A DNA stretch of 64,000 nucleotides from NCBI RefSeq assembly GCF_026798195.1, contig NZ_JAPQEZ010000002.1, positions 261,668 to 325,667 of the forward strand, in the 5' to 3' direction. The translations under genes and the position numbers were made by a program. This DNA is from Lentilactobacillus senioris (GTDB lineage: Bacteria; Bacillota; Bacilli; Lactobacillales; Lactobacillaceae). The notes under the pieces are model-generated. The model searched no databases. It saw nothing but the letters and a program-made list of their open reading frames with translations, and was not told where the DNA came from. Below, piece by piece: positions 33,616 to 42,134 of this stretch. The first letter of the stretch is position 1, and every line of letters begins with the position of its first letter.

Positions 33616-35520
33616 ATGTCTAAAATTGAACCAAGATTATTCGATGAATTAAAAAAAGTACTTGTCTCATTTGGGGACAAGTACTTCATTGGCGATGAAT
33701 TAAATCGTTCAAAGGTTTCTGATGATTTACGTGCTTATGATGAAGCTTTACTAGCAAAATTATTTGAAATTGATTTTATTAAAAAGAATTATATTAAAGA
33801 AGTTGCGGGACAAAAACTATTTCAAATTGATCAACTTGAAGAAGCGATTCTTTACGATGATTATTGGGACACAAGCTATACGAAATATGAAAATCGAGTT
33901 GGTTTAACGAGTAATGGAAAGTTTATTGAAGATAATCAAGACGTTGTTTTGGAATTTCCCTTTAAAGATGGCGTCTTAACAGCGAGCATGACCAAGGAAG
34001 ATAATGAAAATGGTTATGATGATGCATTCTTAAATGAAGTCATTGAAAAAGATGAAATTGATCGTTTGTTTGACAAGAAGATATTAAATCATGCTAAGAG
34101 ATATGATGTTGACGGTGAAAAAGATACTGATAATTTTGATGTAGAAAAAGATAATTTAATTATTAAGGGAAATAATTTGATAGCCTTACATACGCTGAAG
34201 AAACTTTACTCAGGTAAGGTTAAATTTATATATCTAGATCCACCATATAATACCGGTGAGGATTCATGGAACTATAATGATTCGTTTTCCCATTCGGCAT
34301 GGCTCACTTTTATGAAGAATCGACTTGAAATAGCAAAGGAATTATTAACTGATGATGGTGTAATCATTATTAATACAGATGAAGTTGAGCAGGCATATTT
34401 GAAGGTGTTATCAGATGCCATTTTTGGGAGAGAAAATTTTGTTGGGGATTTAATTTGGAAAAAAAGAAAAGGTGGTGGTAACGATTCAAGATTTATTGCG
34501 CTTGATCACGATTATTTAGCAGTTTATACAAAAAGCATAAAAACTGTTGGATTAGGTGAAAAATGGAGAGTTTCATATGAAGACGAATACTTAAAAAGAT
34601 ATAAATATTCTGATGACAAAAGTGGTCTTAGATATTATTGGGATACTCTGGCAAGAGATGGATTAAAAAATCCTATCCCTGTTTCTGTTGTTGCACCGGA
34701 TGGAACGGTGGTCAAGCTTAATTCGCAATCATCCCAAGCAACTGTTGAAAAAGAACTAAGAGAAGGTAATATAAAGTTTACCCATACCAATAATGGCTGG
34801 AAATTGCATCATAAGGTTTTTCAGCCGACAGGAAAAGTTCTTCGATCAATATTGAATATTGAAATAGAAGATGTACCCACAAATAAAAATGCCTCGGATG
34901 AAATCAAATTGTTATTTGGGGATGCAACATTTAACACTCCAAAGCCAGAGGGTTTACTTAAAAAATTGATAGAACTTGTTACAAATGAAGGAGATATGGT
35001 TCTTGATTTTTTCATGGGTTCCGCGACTACTCAAGCAGTAGCCATGAAAATGAATCGACGTTTTATCGGTATTGAGCAAATGGATTACATCAATACGGTC
35101 TCAGTTCCTCGCTTACAAAAAGTTATTGCTGGCGAGCAAGGAGGTATTTCGAAAGATGTCAATTGGCAAGGTGGTGGTTCATTCGTCTATGCTAAACTGA
35201 TGCAAAAGAATATGGGATATTTACAAGATTTAATTTCTGCAAAGACAATTGATGAAATGCATGAAATATATAATCGCATGTTATCTGGTGTAGAAGGTTC
35301 ACAAGAAGCAGCGGATATTTCTTTTAAGGCGGATTTAAACAAAATTGAATGGGATCCAACCAAGGTTCGATTTGATGATCAAAAACGTTTATTAATTAAA
35401 TTACTTGATAAAAATGGGCTGTACTATAACTACTCTGAAATCGATGATCAAAATGTTCGCGAGTTTTTATCAGATCGGGATTATCAATTTAATCAAAGCT
35501 TTTATGAAGCAGGTGAGTAA
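33616..35520 (+). CDS. mod: type III restriction-modification methyltransferase (Mod)
   Basis: DNA N6-adenine methyltransferase and specificity subunit of a type III system; it methylates one strand of an asymmetric site and is also needed for cleavage. Motif IV DPPYNTG (D208) precedes motif I DFFMGSATT (D464), the beta-class order of type III Mod proteins. Residues about 290-450 between them form the variable target-recognition region, so the site cannot be read from sequence. 634 aa, close to EcoP15I Mod. The ATG follows GGAGAGGAAG. res starts 2 nt after the stop. The base composition is more AT-rich than its ribosomal neighbours, as expected for acquired DNA. No phase-variable simple repeat is visible in the frame. 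Confidence 0.93.
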   Translation: MSKIEPRLFDELKKVLVSFGDKYFIGDELNRSKVSDDLRAYDEALLAKLFEIDFIKKNYIKEVAGQKLFQIDQLEEAILYDDYWDTSYTKYENRVGLTSNGKFIEDNQDVVLEFPFKDGVLTASMTKEDNENGYDDAFLNEVIEKDEIDRLFDKKILNHAKRYDVDGEKDTDNFDVEKDNLIIKGNNLIALHTLKKLYSGKVKFIYLDPPYNTGEDSWNYNDSFSHSAWLTFMKNRLEIAKELLTDDGVIIINTDEVEQAYLKVLSDAIFGRENFVGDLIWKKRKGGGNDSRFIALDHDYLAVYTKSIKTVGLGEKWRVSYEDEYLKRYKYSDDKSGLRYYWDTLARDGLKNPIPVSVVAPDGTVVKLNSQSSQATVEKELREGNIKFTHTNNGWKLHHKVFQPTGKVLRSILNIEIEDVPTNKNASDEIKLLFGDATFNTPKPEGLLKKLIELVTNEGDMVLDFFMGSATTQAVAMKMNRRFIGIEQMDYINTVSVPRLQKVIAGEQGGISKDVNWQGGGSFVYAKLMQKNMGYLQDLISAKTIDEMHEIYNRMLSGVEGSQEAADISFKADLNKIEWDPTKVRFDDQKRLLIKLLDKNGLYYNYSEIDDQNVREFLSDRDYQFNQSFYEAGE

Positions 35521-35522
35521 TT

Positions 35523-38288
35523 ATGGCGAAGTCTAAAAAGAAAGACATTCAATCATTGAAATTTCCTCTAGTGGAACAGGCTGAACAGGCAGATCTTAAT
35601 TACTTTAGTGGCCTTTTTGGAGATTCATTTTATATTGATAGCAATTTGAAGCATAATTTACGTAAATATCAAAATGATGCTATAAACAATTTTTGGTACA
35701 CCCAAACACAAATCAAACCTAACCCACAACACGTTTTGTTTAATATGGCAACAGGCTCTGGAAAAACAGATTTAATGGCAGCTTTAATCTTGTATTTATA
35801 TCAAGATCAAGGCTACACGAATTTCTTGTTTACCGTGAATACGAATTCGGTATTGATGAAGACGAAAGATAATCTGATTAATGCTGGTAGCGATAAGTAT
35901 CTCTTTAAAGACAAAATTGAGATTGATGGACAATATATTACGATTCAAGAAGTCAATCGCTACCCACGAATCAAACAAGCCAATACAATTTATCTTAAAT
36001 TAGCAACGGTTCAGACAGTTTCGAACGATCTATTTACGGTTAAAGAAAATACTATGGGCTTGAGCGATTACGAACAAGATCCAGTCGTAATCTTAGCCGA
36101 TGAAGCCCATCATTATTCAGCAAGTACCAAATCTGAAAAAGAAGCAGAGCATACCTGGGAATCAGCAATCAATAAAGTTTTAAATGCTAGAAATAATGAA
36201 GACAAAAAGAATTTGTTGCTAGAGTTTACAGCAACAGTCGATTTTGAGAAGACGACTATTTATGATAAATATCGTGATAAGGTTGTTTACCGTTATCCTT
36301 TAAGCCTTTTTATGTATGATGGTTATTCTAAGCAAGTAAAACGGATTGAAACATCAGCTAGCGATGAAGAAAAAATGCTAAATGTTGTGCTGCTTTCTCA
36401 GTTTAGAAAATATCGGGCTCAAATTGAGAATGTCACCAGTACCTTCAAACCAATTATTATGTTTAAGTCGGCTAAAGTTGCTGTTTCTAACACGGCGAAT
36501 GCTAAATTTAATGAAATGATTGCCAAGCTAACAGCCAAAGATTTACTAGCCTTTATTGAACGTCAACAATTGATGGATAGCAATGACAATGCAGTACTCG
36601 AGCTTTCCTATAAATATTATTTAAAGAACAAGGAAGAATTAGGTAAAATTGTTCGCGAAATCAAACATGACTTTGATTCTAAAAATGTATTAAATGCGAA
36701 TGATGCTAGTGGTAATATGCTTGAAAAAGGTCAGTATGAGGCTTTAAATACCTTAGAAAGCCCCAATAATTTTTATCGGGTTGTTTTTGCAGTTGCCAAG
36801 CTCACTGAAGGCTGGGATGTCTTGAACTTATATGATATTGTTCGTATTAGTGAAGGAGCAGAAAAAAAGACAAATCAAACGGCAACTATGGTAGAGGCTC
36901 AACTAATCGGACGTGGTGCACGCTATTATCCCTTTGAAATAGATGGCAAAAAGAGTTACAAGCGCAGATTTGATGATGATCCATCAGATAAACAACTGAT
37001 TTTAGAAACACTTCATTATCACACGATGAATGAACCACAATATTTAAAACAGCTAGTTGAATCATTAAAGCAAATGGATTTGCCAACTGGTAAAGATAGC
37101 AAAAATCCACCTATTGAGGTAAAAGTTAAACCTGAGTTCAAAAGAACCAATGCTTATCGCAATGGAAAGATTTATTATAACGAATCTGTTGACGTTCCTA
37201 GTAGTTACTTTGATAGTATTCAAAAGTATGGTATTGAACATAAGGTTGATCTTCAGCGTAATCTAAACTATGGTTCACGGGAAGTCAATTATTCAGCGTA
37301 TTCAGCAAGCGTTGAGACTAAAACGATTAGTGTTTCTAGATTTGATGATCGCTATGTTAAAAAGGCGATTCAAAAATTAGATTTTTATCAATTTTCAAAT
37401 TTGAAACAGTACATTCCTAATCTTCAATCTATGGATGAGTTTATTTATGGAAGAAACTGGTTGAATGCTAATCATCTAAGATTATTTTTAACAGTACCTG
37501 TTGAATATCGTGAAGCTAATTTGACCGCAGAAGAAATCTTGAAAGTCATCGTTGATCTTCTAAAAGAATATCAAGTTAAAATCCAATCAGGTTATGTTAA
37601 GCAGCGCGGAACTAATAACTTTATCGGTTATCCAATTAAGGAATATCTTAGCGATTATAATAAACGCGTTCCAGAATATGACACTCAGACACAATTTGCT
37701 GAAACGCAAGATATTAAAGTTTATCAAATGAAAGATGACGAATTTTATGTTTATGACAATGCCATTGTAAACCGGCTTGAATATCAATTAATCGAACGAG
37801 TTAAAGCATATATTGAGGATTTAGAAGCTAAGTATGGTAAAGCAGTGTATCTGTTCCGTATGGATGAAACCATGCACAGAGAGTCAGCTAAGAGTGAAAA
37901 ACTGAAGTTACATCAATATCAAGAAAATCCTAAATATGGCATTCATCTGACCGGCTTCCAACCTGACTTTATTTTGTTTCTTGAAGATACAAACGATTAT
38001 TATTTCCAAATCTTTATTGAGCCTAAGGGAATGAGTGGCGAACGATTCGAGAAAGAATTATGGAAAGAAGAGCTTCTGTTATATATGACGAATCATCATG
38101 CTGATATGGAATTTATGGACAATGAAAGCAATATTCAAATTAGTGGTTTAAAATTCTATACTAATGGCGATGGACGTGGCACGATGGAACAGTTAAAAGA
38201 AATCACAAATATCACAGATGATACGGATCAAAAAAAGCAACCAGTAGATATGGTTGCTGAAAATGCTGACGATAATTTTTCTATGTAA
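35523..38288 (+). CDS. res: type III restriction endonuclease (Res)
   Basis: ATP-dependent restriction subunit acting with Mod. The SF2 helicase core shows Walker A MATGSGKT (M75-T82), DEAH box at D193-H196 (ADEAHHYS), a motif III-like TATVDFEKTT and motif VI-like QLIGRGARYYPF. A C-terminal PD-(D/E)XK nuclease is visible as PDF (D815) with E833-P-K835. 921 aa, near the usual 900-970. All key residues are present, so the enzyme looks functional. Translation is coupled to mod. Confidence 0.93.
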   Translation: MAKSKKKDIQSLKFPLVEQAEQADLNYFSGLFGDSFYIDSNLKHNLRKYQNDAINNFWYTQTQIKPNPQHVLFNMATGSGKTDLMAALILYLYQDQGYTNFLFTVNTNSVLMKTKDNLINAGSDKYLFKDKIEIDGQYITIQEVNRYPRIKQANTIYLKLATVQTVSNDLFTVKENTMGLSDYEQDPVVILADEAHHYSASTKSEKEAEHTWESAINKVLNARNNEDKKNLLLEFTATVDFEKTTIYDKYRDKVVYRYPLSLFMYDGYSKQVKRIETSASDEEKMLNVVLLSQFRKYRAQIENVTSTFKPIIMFKSAKVAVSNTANAKFNEMIAKLTAKDLLAFIERQQLMDSNDNAVLELSYKYYLKNKEELGKIVREIKHDFDSKNVLNANDASGNMLEKGQYEALNTLESPNNFYRVVFAVAKLTEGWDVLNLYDIVRISEGAEKKTNQTATMVEAQLIGRGARYYPFEIDGKKSYKRRFDDDPSDKQLILETLHYHTMNEPQYLKQLVESLKQMDLPTGKDSKNPPIEVKVKPEFKRTNAYRNGKIYYNESVDVPSSYFDSIQKYGIEHKVDLQRNLNYGSREVNYSAYSASVETKTISVSRFDDRYVKKAIQKLDFYQFSNLKQYIPNLQSMDEFIYGRNWLNANHLRLFLTVPVEYREANLTAEEILKVIVDLLKEYQVKIQSGYVKQRGTNNFIGYPIKEYLSDYNKRVPEYDTQTQFAETQDIKVYQMKDDEFYVYDNAIVNRLEYQLIERVKAYIEDLEAKYGKAVYLFRMDETMHRESAKSEKLKLHQYQENPKYGIHLTGFQPDFILFLEDTNDYYFQIFIEPKGMSGERFEKELWKEELLLYMTNHHADMEFMDNESNIQISGLKFYTNGDGRGTMEQLKEITNITDDTDQKKQPVDMVAENADDNFSM

Positions 38289-38437
38289 GGAACACTAATG
38301 ACTCGCATTATTTTGATAAAATCCCCACCATTTGAGTCAAAGTTATTCAAATTGAGTGAGATTTATTGAAGGTAATACTTAAGAAAAGCCTTGATATTAA
38401 AGGTTATTCCAACTTAGTGAAAATGGATTCTAATAAA
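38289..38437 (+). other. distal element tail without a recognisable gene
   Basis: 149 nt between the res stop and the distal repeat. It holds only short frames (for example a 23-codon ATG frame from 38298) with no recognisable product. There is no integrase, excisionase or terminator before the repeat. Confidence 0.5.
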
Positions 38438-38539
38438 CCAGGTCTTAAGAAAGCTCGTAAAGCTTCACAATTCTCAAAGCGTTAAGATTTATCTTTTCGG
38501 TTTGTACAAACACTCGCCATTTGGTGGGTGTTTTTTTGT
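38438..38539 (+). repeat. distal direct repeat (attR-like), displaced rpsI 3' end plus terminator
   Basis: 102 nt matching 33373-33474. It encodes [15 protein letters not shown] and stop in the original frame, followed by the rpsI-type terminator. The conserved phenylalanine here suggests that this is the ancestral end of rpsI, pushed about 5.1 kb downstream by the insertion. It is now only a gene fragment. Confidence 0.85.
38509..38537 (+). terminator. terminator in the distal repeat
   Basis: Copy of the rpsI terminator: AACACTCGCCA pairs with TGGTGGGTGTT, then seven T. It now probably terminates mod-res. Confidence 0.85.
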
Positions 38540-38566
38540 GACTTCATTAATGAATGAGCCAATCAG

Positions 38567-38596
38567 TTGACACTTAGTTGCTTTCCCAATTACCAT
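38567..38596 (+). promoter_or_regulatory. possible promoter of the RclA-like gene
   Basis: TTGACA (38567-38572), 18-nt spacer, TACCAT (38591-38596). The -35 is perfect and the -10 poor, so an activator may be required. Confidence 0.4.
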
Positions 38597-38634
38597 GAGT
38601 TTAATCTGAATTCGAATAATGGGAGGAACTGTTT

Positions 38635-39990
38635 ATGATTACTGCACAAAACGTATTTATTGGTTTCGGCAAAGCGGCGAAAACATTAGCCGGGGCGTTA
38701 GCTAATCGTGGTGAATCTGTGATTATGATTGAGGCATCGGATAAAATGTACGGTGGGACTTGTATTAACGTGGCTTGTATCCCTACCAAAACCCTATTAA
38801 CCAGTTCTCAAAATAATCGCTTGGGCGATGCTCAGGAAAATTATCGGAGTGCCATCGTAAATAAAAACGATGTGACCGGTACTTTGCGGAGCAGTAACCT
38901 TCATAAGTTAAGTGACAAAGCAACCGTGACCGTGTTAAATGGCTGGGCAGAGTTTGAAGCGCCTAAGCAACTTAAAGTTACATATCAAAATGGTAAGGTT
39001 GATCAAATTAGTGGCGAGCGAATTTTTATTAATACCGGGAGTACCCCGATTATTCCTGAAATTCCGGGGTTAGTAACTAGTCCATTTATGCAAACAAGTG
39101 AAACCTTGATGGATCAACGCAGACTTCCTAAGCACCTTGCTATTGTTGGCGGTGGCTACATTGGATTAGAATTTGCCTCCATCTACGCTAATTTTGGCTC
39201 TCAAGTGACAATTATTGATGCGGGTAAACAGTTTATGGCACGGGATGAACGAGAACTGGCAACGGCTGTTCAACGTGATATGGCTGCTAAGGGAGTTGAA
39301 TTTGAATTAAATGCCCAAGTCACCCAGGTAATTAATCAAGTAGGAGAGGCCAAAATTGAGTTCGAACAAGACGGTCAACGACGTACGCTAACTGCTGATA
39401 CCATTTTGGTGTCTACTGGGAGAAAAGCTAATATTGCTAAACTGGGTTTAGACAAAGCGGGAATTGCCACTAATCAGCGGGGCATCATTGTGGATGACCA
39501 CTTGCGAACTAATGTGGATAACATTTGGGCAATGGGGGACGTCCGGGGTGGCGCACAATTTACTTACATTTCCTTAGACGATTACCGAATTGTGTTGGAT
39601 CAACTAGTAGGAGATGGCAAACGAACCTTAGCAGAGCAAGAATTAGTTCCCCACGTAGTCTTCTTAAACACTCCGGTGGCAACGATTGGCTTAAATGAAG
39701 AACAGGCTAAGAACCAACAAATCGCATACCAAGTTGGTAAACTAGCTACTACCGCTGTGCCAAAAGCGCACGTATTAGGTAATACAACCGGGTACTTAAA
39801 AGTGTTAGTGGACCCAGCTAACCATGAGATCTTGGGAGCTACGTTATACTGCATTGAAGCCCAAGAATTAATCAACATGATTTCTTTAGCTATGCACCAA
39901 CATTTACCATACGAAGTTTTACGAGATCAAATTTATTCTCATCCTACAATGACGGAAGCCTTTAACGATTTATTTGGGACAATTAAATAA
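38635..39990 (+). CDS. rclA: RclA-like flavin disulfide oxidoreductase
   Basis: Class I pyridine-nucleotide disulfide reductase, FAD- and NAD(P)H-dependent. Unlike lipoamide dehydrogenase, the N-terminus reads IGFGKAAKTLAGALA as in RclA; the redox pair is C43/C48 in YGGTCINVACIPTKTL. The second nucleotide-binding glycine motif is VGGGYIGLEFASI, and the end has HPTMTEAFNDLF. ISLDDYRIVLDQL also matches RclA. RclA relatives protect against hypochlorous or hypothiocyanous acid and can reduce Cu(II), so a role in oxidative/thiol stress is likely but inferred. 451 aa; GGGAGG precedes ATG 38635. Convergent with a rhodanese-CstR operon. Confidence 0.8.
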   Translation: MITAQNVFIGFGKAAKTLAGALANRGESVIMIEASDKMYGGTCINVACIPTKTLLTSSQNNRLGDAQENYRSAIVNKNDVTGTLRSSNLHKLSDKATVTVLNGWAEFEAPKQLKVTYQNGKVDQISGERIFINTGSTPIIPEIPGLVTSPFMQTSETLMDQRRLPKHLAIVGGGYIGLEFASIYANFGSQVTIIDAGKQFMARDERELATAVQRDMAAKGVEFELNAQVTQVINQVGEAKIEFEQDGQRRTLTADTILVSTGRKANIAKLGLDKAGIATNQRGIIVDDHLRTNVDNIWAMGDVRGGAQFTYISLDDYRIVLDQLVGDGKRTLAEQELVPHVVFLNTPVATIGLNEEQAKNQQIAYQVGKLATTAVPKAHVLGNTTGYLKVLVDPANHEILGATLYCIEAQELINMISLAMHQHLPYEVLRDQIYSHPTMTEAFNDLFGTIK

Positions 39991-39991
39991 T

Positions 39992-40038
39992 AAAAAAACT
40001 GCTGAAGCTAATAATAACTAGCTTTGGCAGTTTTTTTT
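39992..40038. terminator. bidirectional terminator between rclA and the cstR operon
   Basis: Interrupted stem AAAAAACTGC...AGCTA / TAGCT...GCAGTTTTTT, with T-runs on both strands, between convergent genes. Confidence 0.85.
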
Positions 40039-40297
40039 ATTTTTTCATAATTAGTTTAATGGCTTCGGCCACTTTTGCTTCTTGAACGGCTGCATCTATT
40101 TCGGGATTTTCGAAGCAGTTTTTTAAATTTTCGGCAACAATTAGGCCCATAATGTGATCAACGCTTGAGCGCACTGCACTTAACTGGGTAATAATTTCGG
40201 CACAATCTTTTTCTTCGACGAGCATTTTTTGAATTCCGCGAAGTTGGCCCTCCGTACGTTTTAAGCGATTTAAGACGGTTTTATCACAAGTTGTCAT
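40037..40297 (-). CDS. cstR: CsoR-family repressor, CstR-type persulfide sensor
   Basis: DUF156/CsoR all-helical repressor, 86 aa from the ATG at 40297 (MTTCDKTVLNRLKR), which overlaps the stop of the preceding rhodanese gene by one base; the longer TTG start is unlikely. It has two cysteines, C32 (EEKDC) and C61 (ENLKNC), but asparagine (N57) where copper-sensing CsoR has its histidine ligand. This Cys-Cys pattern and the segment SSVDHIMGLIVAENLKNC resemble Staphylococcus CstR, which forms a di- or trisulfide with persulfides and derepresses sulfide-detoxification genes. Co-transcription with two rhodaneses supports that role. It most likely represses its own operon through the palindrome at 40958-40979. 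Confidence 0.8.
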   Translation of the reverse strand: MTTCDKTVLNRLKRTEGQLRGIQKMLVEEKDCAEIITQLSAVRSSVDHIMGLIVAENLKNCFENPEIDAAVQEAKVAEAIKLIMKK

Positions 40298-40593
40298 TAC
40301 TCGATCGCCCCGTTCCAAGCCAGCATCCCCCCGGTAACGTTAGTAACGCGATAACCTTGTTGGGTTAAAAATGCGGAAGCATTGGCTGAGCGAGCTCCAG
40401 AACGACAAATTAAGTAGTAAGAGTTAGCTTTATCTAGTTTATGGTAGTCGGCAAGTAACTGGCTAAGGGGCAGATTAATGGCACCTGGAACGTGACCAGC
40501 GTTGAATTCGTAGTCTTCTCTGACATCTACCAGGTTAACCGTGCCAGTTTGCATTTGGGTTGCTAATTCATCTGTGTTGATTGTGTTAAACAT
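40297..40593 (-). CDS. single-domain rhodanese (sulfurtransferase)
   Basis: Rhodanese-homology protein carrying sulfane sulfur on a cysteine persulfide. 98 aa; the active loop is CRSGARS (C63), with VDVREDYEFNAGHVPGAINLP before it. Middle gene of the reverse-strand operon rhodanese-rhodanese-cstR; its stop overlaps the cstR start. A role in persulfide handling is inferred from context. Confidence 0.88.
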   Translation of the reverse strand: MFNTINTDELATQMQTGTVNLVDVREDYEFNAGHVPGAINLPLSQLLADYHKLDKANSYYLICRSGARSANASAFLTQQGYRVTNVTGGMLAWNGAIE

Positions 40594-40621
40594 AGTAATC
40601 TCCTTTTTATGGTAATAAATT

Positions 40622-40936
40622 TTATTTTCCCACGCGTATTTTGCCGGCCCAAGCGTTCATGCCACCGCGTACGTTAATAACCTGATAGCCATTAGTTCGC
40701 AATATTTTAGCAGCTTGTTTACTTCGATGACCAGACTGACAAATTACATATAGGGGTTCGGTTGCTGGGCGATGATATTGAGCAACCTTGGCTAACGGCC
40801 AATTGGTAGCTATTGAAATATGTCCCGAACGGTATTCTGTGGGAGTTCGAACGTCTAATAAATTTGGTCGATCTTTTAAACGATCAGCTAATTCTGCTGT
40901 GGAAATACTGGGAATACGATTAAATAGGGAAAACAT
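40622..40936 (-). CDS. single-domain rhodanese (sulfurtransferase)
   Basis: Second rhodanese-like protein, 104 aa, active loop CQSGHRS (C66), preceded by LLDVRTPTEYRSGHI. An N-terminal hydrophobic patch (MFSLFNRIP) is too short for a signal peptide. First gene of the reverse operon; a reverse-strand GGAGG precedes its ATG. The two rhodaneses are clearly different in sequence, so they are paralogues and not a recent duplication. Confidence 0.88.
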   Translation of the reverse strand: MFSLFNRIPSISTAELADRLKDRPNLLDVRTPTEYRSGHISIATNWPLAKVAQYHRPATEPLYVICQSGHRSKQAAKILRTNGYQVINVRGGMNAWAGKIRVGK

Positions 40937-40957
40937 AGGCAGCCTCCAAGTTTGTTA

Positions 40958-40979
40958 AATATACCTCGTTAGGTATATT
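40958..40979. promoter_or_regulatory. CsoR/CstR-type operator A
   Basis: Perfect palindrome AATATACC (40958-40965), 6-nt spacer, GGTATATT (40972-40979). CsoR/CstR sites are built on TACC/GGTA half sites. It overlaps the -10 box of the rhodanese-cstR promoter. Confidence 0.75.
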
Positions 40980-41004
40980 ATGAAGTTAAAAAGGCATTTG
41001 TCAA
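40975..41004 (-). promoter_or_regulatory. promoter of the rhodanese-cstR operon
   Basis: On the reverse strand TTGACA (41004-40999), 18-nt spacer, TAATAT (40980-40975). The -10 lies inside operator A. Confidence 0.8.
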
Positions 41005-41060
41005 TGTTTTGATTATAATTAACTTTTAATTAGTTCGTTAAAATAGCGATTCATTGTTAA

Positions 41061-41080
41061 ATATACCCGCGGTGGTATTT
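41061..41080. promoter_or_regulatory. CsoR/CstR-type operator B
   Basis: ATATACC (41061-41067), 6-nt spacer, GGTATTT (41074-41080): the same half sites and spacing as operator A but with one arm mismatch. It lies just upstream of the marR -35 box, about 100 nt from operator A. Confidence 0.6.
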
Positions 41081-41091
41081 ATATAATAATA

Positions 41092-41119
41092 TTGCATTTG
41101 CAATAAAAATCAGTATAAT
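41092..41119 (+). promoter_or_regulatory. promoter of the marR-GNAT unit
   Basis: TTGCAT (41092-41097), 16-nt spacer, TATAAT (41114-41119). Confidence 0.65.
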
Positions 41120-41149: not shown

Positions 41150-41608
41150 ATGGTAGAAATTTTGCGATCACTAGGCAATATTGCGAGGGCTTTAGATTCA
41201 ATTAGCAACATTGAATTTAAAGCTTATGAACTGACCAAAGGCCAATATCTTTATTTAGTTCGAATTTGTGAACAACCGGGAATTATTTCCGAAGAGTTAT
41301 CCACAATGTTGAAAGTTGATCGGTCAACCGTGGCCCGCGCAATAAAAAAATTAGAAGCTAACGGCCTGGTTGAACGCAGAAGTAGTGTGGACAACAAGAA
41401 AAATAAACGTATCTTTGCTACTGAACGAGGCCTGGCCATTTACCCGGTTATTAAAGCAGAAAATGATTATTCCAATCAAGTTGCGCTAGCGGGCTTAAGT
41501 GAAGTTGAAGCACAGCAGTTAAAACAATTGTTAAGCCGAGTAGAAACTAACGTAAATGGTGACTGGGAGCTAGTTAAAAAGGGTGGCACTAGGGGGTATT
41601 TGAAGTAA
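41150..41608 (+). CDS. MarR-family transcriptional regulator
   Basis: Winged-helix regulator, 152 aa from ATG 41150, chosen because GGGAG at 41137-41141 gives correct spacing; the in-frame ATG 41135 lacks a site. The HTH and recognition helix are around LSTMLKVDRSTVARAIKKLEANGLVERR, and the wing at SSVDNKKNKRIFATERG. It begins a unit with an acetyltransferase and a broken B3/4-domain gene, and is divergent from the rhodanese operon. Its ligand and targets are unknown. Confidence 0.88.
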   Translation: MVEILRSLGNIARALDSISNIEFKAYELTKGQYLYLVRICEQPGIISEELSTMLKVDRSTVARAIKKLEANGLVERRSSVDNKKNKRIFATERGLAIYPVIKAENDYSNQVALAGLSEVEAQQLKQLLSRVETNVNGDWELVKKGGTRGYLK

Positions 41609-41609
41609 T

Positions 41610-42134
41610 ATGCAGATTACAATTGAAGCAGTTCAACCAGCCGAATTAGCTAAGTTGGTAACTGTTAGTCGGCAAACCTTTTGGGATACGTTTGCAATGA
41701 CCAATAATGAAGCTGATATTAAGAGTTACCTGGATGAGCAATTAATAGAACCTAAGTTGTGTCAGGAACTAGCTAACCCTAATTCCGAATTTTATTTTGC
41801 TAAGCAGGGAACAGAAATATTGGGTTATCTAAAACTTAACATAGCAACGGCTCAAACCGAAGCTGATTATCCGCAATCCTTAGAGGTGCAACGGATTTAT
41901 GTGTTGAAAAAATATCAACAATTGGGGATTGGGCAGCAGCTAATGGCGTGGGCAGTAAAAAGAGCAATTCAGTTAAAGAAATCAATGATCTGGCTAGGGG
42001 TGTGGGAACATAATCAACAAGCACAACGCTTTTACACCCGAACTGGTTTTATTCGAACTGCTGAACATACTTTTACAATGGGGAATAGTCAACAAACTGA
42101 TTGGATTATGACGAAAACAATGGAGGAAAAATAA
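41610..42134 (+). CDS. GNAT-family N-acetyltransferase
   Basis: Acetyl-CoA-dependent transferase, 174 aa. Motif A is visible as VQRIYVLKKYQQLGIGQQLM with the Q-x-x-G-x-G pyrophosphate loop, followed by IWLGVWEHNQQAQRFYTRTGF (motif B). The substrate is not predictable. It starts 1 nt after marR and its stop overlaps the next start (TAATG). Confidence 0.88.
   Translation: MQITIEAVQPAELAKLVTVSRQTFWDTFAMTNNEADIKSYLDEQLIEPKLCQELANPNSEFYFAKQGTEILGYLKLNIATAQTEADYPQSLEVQRIYVLKKYQQLGIGQQLMAWAVKRAIQLKKSMIWLGVWEHNQQAQRFYTRTGFIRTAEHTFTMGNSQQTDWIMTKTMEEK

Follow-up and report, generated by a model that had tools for sequence, protein, structure and literature searches.

A predicted CstR-type reactive-sulfur response operon in Lentilactobacillus that retains two rhodaneses and has probably lost its CoA-persulfide reductase

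The 64,000-nucleotide stretch of Lentilactobacillus DNA analysed here (the window) appears to carry a self-regulated CstR-type operon for the response to reactive sulfur, from which the CoA-persulfide reductase has been lost, a reading to which we assign a probability of about 0.85. The operon consists of rhd1, rhd2 and cstR, transcribed in that order (Table 1). The open reading frame listed for cstR extends from 40037 to 40318, and the ATG at 40297 is its likely start; the rhd2 stop and this start overlap as TAATG, and 28 bases separate rhd1 from rhd2. An initial sequence-only reading, the first-pass annotation, had described two distinct rhodaneses in the operon of the repressor, and this holds up: both products match PF00581 with scores far exceeding its cut-off, share about 43% identity with each other and carry the loops CQSGHRS (rhd1) and CRSGARS (rhd2). 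The rhd1 product shares 78% identity with its L. kribbianus counterpart and 67% with that of Lapidilactobacillus dextrinicus. All three genes are under purifying selection within the clade, with dN/dS of 0.06 for rhd1 (one pair, the comparison with L. kribbianus, in which synonymous sites are saturated), 0.10-0.14 for rhd2 (three Lentilactobacillus copies) and 0.09-0.11 for cstR, although synonymous sites are close to saturation in several of the pairs.

Table 1. Features of the cst operon and its surroundings, in window coordinates
Feature	Position	Strand	Evidence
RclA/MerA-like flavoprotein disulfide reductase gene, converging on cstR	38635..39990	+	NCBIfam models, sub-cut-off
Likely terminator between the rclA-like gene and cstR	39992..40037	.	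1 found, 1.3 expected in shuffles
cstR, CsoR/RcnR-family repressor, last gene of the operon	40037..40297	-	PF02583, 85.8 bits (cut-off 22.8)
rhd2 (rhdB-like), single-domain rhodanese	40297..40593	-	PF00581, 78.1 bits
rhd1 (rhdA-like), single-domain rhodanese at the head of the operon	40622..40936	-	PF00581, 61.0 bits
Operator 1, perfect AATATACC-N6-GGTATATT	40958..40979	.	palindrome over the operon -10
Likely operon promoter, TTGACA-N18-TAATAT or TTGACA-N16-CATAAT	40975..41004	-	consensus scan
Operator 2, TATACC-CGCGGT-GGTATT	41062..41079	.	second copy between the divergent promoters, at 102 bp from operator 1
Inverted repeat TTGCATTTGCAA, covering the likely marR -35	41092..41103	.	conserved upstream of marR in Lentilactobacillus
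marR, divergent neighbour	41150..41608	+	PF01047, 54.8 bits
GNAT acetyltransferase gene (PaiA-like), adjoining marR	41610..42134	+	NCBIfam PaiA, 176 bits (cut-off 250)

The identity of the regulator rests on its residues and its neighbours. At E≤0.001 it matches a single Pfam family, PF02583 (DUF156), and it is the one protein in the whole genome that matches this family. A Cys-Cys pattern lacking the copper-ligand histidine had been proposed from the first reading, and the alignment bears this out: all 93 aligned relatives have the same residues at the positions of Cys32, Asn57 and Cys61 (a set from which four long-branch rows of an earlier tree set, L029, L115, L139 and L197, had been dropped). 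In alignments with solved chains, the column of Asn57 holds His in the metal-sensor chains 5fmn (InrS), 6ahx and 4adz and Asn in 7mq1. Cys32 and Cys61 share columns with Cys31 and Cys60 of S. aureus CstR.

If the protein were instead a copper sensor (CsoR) or another metal sensor, the rhodaneses would stand in its operon by happenstance. Several points lean that way. The genome encodes no second DUF156 protein, so a division of labour between paralogues offers no argument against a copper role; the best NCBIfam match is the copper sensor RicR, at a sub-threshold 51 bits against a cut-off of 175; and the closest solved chains, 7mq1-7mq3 (78 bits), were deposited as 'csoR'. However, 7MQ2, from the same PDB group as 7mq1, appears under the name CstR in the legend to a figure of PMC9774590. 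The protein does share the PF02583 fold family and the two cysteine positions with the CsoR-family copper sensors, but Asn in place of the ligand His leaves their Cys-His-Cys set incomplete, its operon contains no copper genes, the adjoining genes encode sulfurtransferases and its operator is common to coaP operons. We rejected a copper sensor on the Asn57 column and the operon content, and consider a metal sensor of any kind very improbable. Counting against the reactive-sulfur reading itself, PMC10318464 reports that a family member with CstR-like features, TTHA1953, did not lose DNA binding with NaHS.

Upstream of rhd1, the first-pass annotation had placed a perfect palindrome on the -10 of the operon, and we find exactly this arrangement. 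Operator 1 reads AATATACC-TCGTTA-GGTATATT, with 8-base arms free of mismatches. The predicted -35, TTGACA, lies at 41004-40999, and operator 1 overlaps both candidate -10 hexamers, TAATAT (40980-40975) and CATAAT (40982-40977). The segment TTTGTCAATG, which contains the -35, is identical across three species. Sites with at most two mismatches number five in the window against 2.1 expected, a count reached by none of 100 shuffles. Across the genome, TATACC-N6-GGTATA occurs three times at ≤1 mismatch and the reversed pattern seven times, so lone sites at this threshold are unremarkable. The strict core ATACC-N6-GGTAT is more discriminating, with three sites in the 1.8-Mb genome versus none for the reversed pattern, and two of the three are operators 1 and 2, 102 bp apart. 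We discarded the third strict-core site as a CstR target because it falls inside a 520-aa ORF, and likewise the third site at ≤1 mismatch (C23:344302), which lies inside a 104-aa ORF; no other ORF in the surrounding 2 kb reaches 80 aa.

The same element recurs at related loci. A CstR-alignment search yielded 519 confirmed relatives; in the best 80 of these, TATACC-N6-GGTATA stands upstream of the cst genes at ≤1 mismatch in 62 and is missing at that threshold from 18, and 68 of the 80 have it when the region is widened to 3.2 kb around cstR. The corresponding count for 89 permuted arms averaged 0.12 loci with a maximum of 2. We used only counts at ≤1 mismatch because one permuted arm hit 38 of the 80 loci at ≤2. 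The many 2-mismatch matches at rhd1 (TATGCC...GGTATT) lie inside coding sequence and do not count as operators. On an S. xylosus plasmid with annotated cstR, cstA and cstB, AATACC-N6-GGTATA and AATACC-N6-GGTATT stand between divergent cstA and cstR. TATACC-N6-GGTATA is thus an operator-like element widely shared among the CstR loci of Bacilli, one that CstR would be expected to bind, and it offers a handle for locating CstR targets in Lactobacillales.

A second copy of the palindrome had been noted before the divergent marR. Its position is as described, but the copy is slightly imperfect, with one mismatch in its 6-base arms and less perfect outer bases, and 12 bp separate it from the likely -35 of marR downstream, which places it off the core promoter of that gene. 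The location is kept in relatives, at 102 bp with one mismatch in the L. senioris record and at 101 bp with three mismatches in L. kribbianus. Across the three species, 9 of 10 core columns of operator 2 are identical compared with 15 of 73 other spacer columns (Fisher p 3e-5), a count that the underlying alignment may itself favour. We conclude that operator 2 is probably functional; its target may be marR or the cst promoter.

One alternative takes operator 2 to place marR, and with it the GNAT gene, under CstR as part of a wider sulfur-linked regulon. The steady spacing and the conservation of the core above the spacer speak for this, as does the distribution of the site: among 18 marR loci of Lentilactobacillus, three carry it, whereas nothing matches at ≤2 mismatches in the remaining 15 (one of these has a match with three), and cst genes were not found in the 3-kb stretch compared for any of the 15. 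Yet such co-occurrence would be expected anyhow if the site had arrived with the operon. The distance from the core promoter, the three mismatches in L. kribbianus and the presence of comparable second sites beside genes other than marR in Lapidilactobacillus (107 bp, two mismatches) and Enterococcus sp. CU9D (102 bp, one mismatch) also count against it. Furthermore, marR has an inverted repeat of its own: TTGC-N4-GCAA is exact upstream of marR in 13 of the 18 Lentilactobacillus loci and one base off in the other five, and the TTGCATTTGCAA-type repeat over the -35 is probably the autoregulatory site of MarR itself. Control of marR by CstR is therefore possible but, in our view, rather doubtful. 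We regard it as unlikely, too, that operator 2 is a decaying remnant devoid of function. The degraded L. kribbianus copy would fit a remnant, as would the fact that, of 39 colinear relatives with the primary site, 30 lack any further copy at ≤2 mismatches in the 220 bp upstream of it, but the near-identity of the core columns in three species, with the caveat on the alignment given above, argues for a maintained site.

The operon departs from its relatives in lacking coaP, which is absent from the operon in the window, in L. kribbianus and in the L. senioris record. Among the best 80 of 519 relatives, our script found a gene resembling CoA-disulfide reductase no more than 3.2 kb from cstR in 72, and one of the remaining eight (L086) has such a gene on inspection; in 50 of the 80, the reductase-like gene is accompanied by two rhodaneses. 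The usual order in this set is rhdA-coaP-rhdB-cstR, seen in Lapidilactobacillus dextrinicus, Lactococcus piscium, Listeria newyorkensis, Alkalibacterium and many Enterococcus, and also on a Secundilactobacillus malefermentans plasmid. Other Enterococcus have rhodanese-reductase genes divergent from cstR. The window and L. kribbianus have rhd1-rhd2-cstR and the L. senioris record rhd2-cstR. CstR relatives occur in 11 of 24 Lentilactobacillus genomes, directly beside a CoA-disulfide-reductase/rhodanese gene in six of the 11 and not in the other five.

A published system closely resembles this one. PMC9405070 describes a cst-like operon of E. faecalis that comprises RhdA, RhdB, CstR and a CstR-regulated coaP, and reports thiosulfate sulfurtransferase activity for both RhdA and RhdB. 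The E. faecalis operon, as presented there, shares the regulator type and the two rhodaneses with ours, and the Enterococcus relatives that we compared (E. faecalis not among them) share the operator and the gene order, with cstR last and the operator at the first gene. In contrast, the operon of the window is without coaP, has rhd1 and rhd2 adjacent to each other and lies beside marR and an rclA-like gene. It is a coaP-less variant of the published Enterococcus design, a useful minimal system that will not surprise specialists. The literature that we searched contained no account of such an operon in Lactobacillaceae; a survey of the CstR family may already include these proteins.

The Staphylococcus cst locus (cstR-tauE / cstA-cstB) is a more distant match. 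It encodes an annotated CstR with 44% identity to ours and has two operators of like design between divergent promoters, but cstA, cstB and tauE are missing from the operon here and the gene order differs. The S. aureus cst locus also includes sqr. We rejected an S. aureus-type operon with SQR and persulfide dioxygenase as the closest design on gene content. This bears on the proposal in the first-pass annotation of a response reduced to sulfurtransferases with no sulfide:quinone reductase or persulfide dioxygenase nearby: the gene content agrees, but judged by the Enterococcus-type operons the missing piece is coaP.

Reduced loci exist elsewhere. Like the window, the L. senioris record, L. 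kribbianus, an Enterococcus casseliflavus plasmid and the second locus of E. viikkiensis pair cstR with a single rhodanese or with two but have no adjoining coaP, although the number of rhodaneses and the neighbouring genes vary. On the E. casseliflavus plasmid (NZ_CP141641.1; L206), the rhodanese-cstR pair is accompanied by folE and an SDR gene and bounded by IS1216 copies, and we note it as a mobile reduced cst unit. The content of the Lentilactobacillus operon is probably a lineage-specific reduction. That coaP was lost, as against never present, is suggested by gene content; we rely on this for the ancestry because support in the CstR tree, built on 86 columns, is weak and a single clade of all 12 tested Lentilactobacillus rows was not rejected (p-AU 0.819). 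Horizontal acquisition by this clade, suggested by a split in the first tree, was dropped when a single Lentilactobacillus clade later scored even better.

Related sulfur functions are encoded elsewhere in the genome. It contains five rhodanese-domain proteins, one of which is a 567-aa CoA-disulfide-reductase/rhodanese fusion at C12:36785, distant from the operon. The fusion is about 40% identical to the operon-borne reductases and 78% to the corresponding protein of Lentilactobacillus genome G307, the only other of 24 in which it occurs at high identity; no full-length counterpart was found in the L. senioris and L. kribbianus records, where matches end near residue 441. We considered a CstR site at the fusion gene and rejected it, as only chance-level matches with three mismatches were present. 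On its two sides the gene has those for an ABC permease and a sulfur-transport protein (PF04143), a LysR gene diverges from them, and the whole group (G000:C12, ~34-39 kb) is a possible sulfur-uptake cluster. A CstB query across the genome returned rhodanese domains only, without the metallo-lactamase part of a CstB-type persulfide dioxygenase, and tauE, cstA and sqr were not found among the genes around the operon. PF00753 has no match within the window. PF07992 has 12 in the genome, of which the sole one within the window is the RclA-like protein; an NCBIfam scan of seven of the 12, together with the RclA-like protein, called none of them SQR, in a library whose inclusion of an SQR model is unconfirmed. 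Another of the five rhodanese-domain proteins of the genome, an ArsR-rhodanese fusion (L012, 975-1619), is encoded beside two thioredoxin-like genes and is a further candidate sulfur or redox sensor.

These observations suggest a simple regulatory cycle. The CstR tetramer on operator 1 would block the rhd1-rhd2-cstR promoter. For CstR, PMC9774590 presents di-, tri- and tetrasulfide chemistry between Cys31 and Cys60', and by analogy the protein of the window may sense persulfides: persulfides or polysulfides would bridge Cys32 and Cys61 of two protomers with two, three or four sulfurs. Bridged CstR would leave the DNA, allowing the two rhodaneses and more CstR to be made, and the rhodaneses could then pass sulfane sulfur to thiol or other acceptors. 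Once reduced, CstR would rebind operator 1. Operator 2 would probably act as an auxiliary CstR site, either as a distal operator of the cst promoter or by touching marR.

The rhodaneses of cst operons lack known cellular partners: PMC9405070 states that neither donors nor acceptors have yet been identified for RhdA and RhdB. CstR paired with two rhodaneses in an operon without the CoA-persulfide reductase makes a simple natural system for studying rhodanese function alone, and the sister species with CstR and a single rhodanese is a second, simpler one. A bolder proposal is that the regulon shed its persulfide reductase, kept the sensor, operator and rhodaneses, and gained control of the MarR-acetyltransferase pair through operator 2. 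We consider this combination improbable. Were it true, sulfur transfer alone would suffice as an inducible defence when reactive sulfur builds up, and that defence would be coupled to another stress regulator.

On the diverging side of the operon, the marR ORF is listed from 41135, and the ATG at 41150 agrees with its relatives; a B3/4-domain gene lies on this side as well, with marR and the PaiA-like GNAT gene. Lentilactobacillus marR genes are mostly grouped with GNAT and B3/4-domain genes (marR loci L143-L160). On the converging side, the RclA-like flavoprotein scores 524 bits against the RclA model (cut-off 740) and 481 bits against the model for the HOSCN reductase MerA (cut-off 650). At 38431-40100 of the window, the identity of the rclA-like gene to the L. 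senioris record is about 98-99% (dS 0.08), compared with about 80-90% for the genes on the far side of the cst operon (dS 0.6-1.0), a pattern as if this stretch had recently been exchanged via homologous recombination. A Type III restriction-modification pair, an N6/N4 methylase with PF12564 and a ResIII protein, occupies 33616-38288, between apparent ribosomal-protein genes and rclA. In the L. senioris and L. kribbianus records, rclA directly follows those apparent ribosomal-protein genes.
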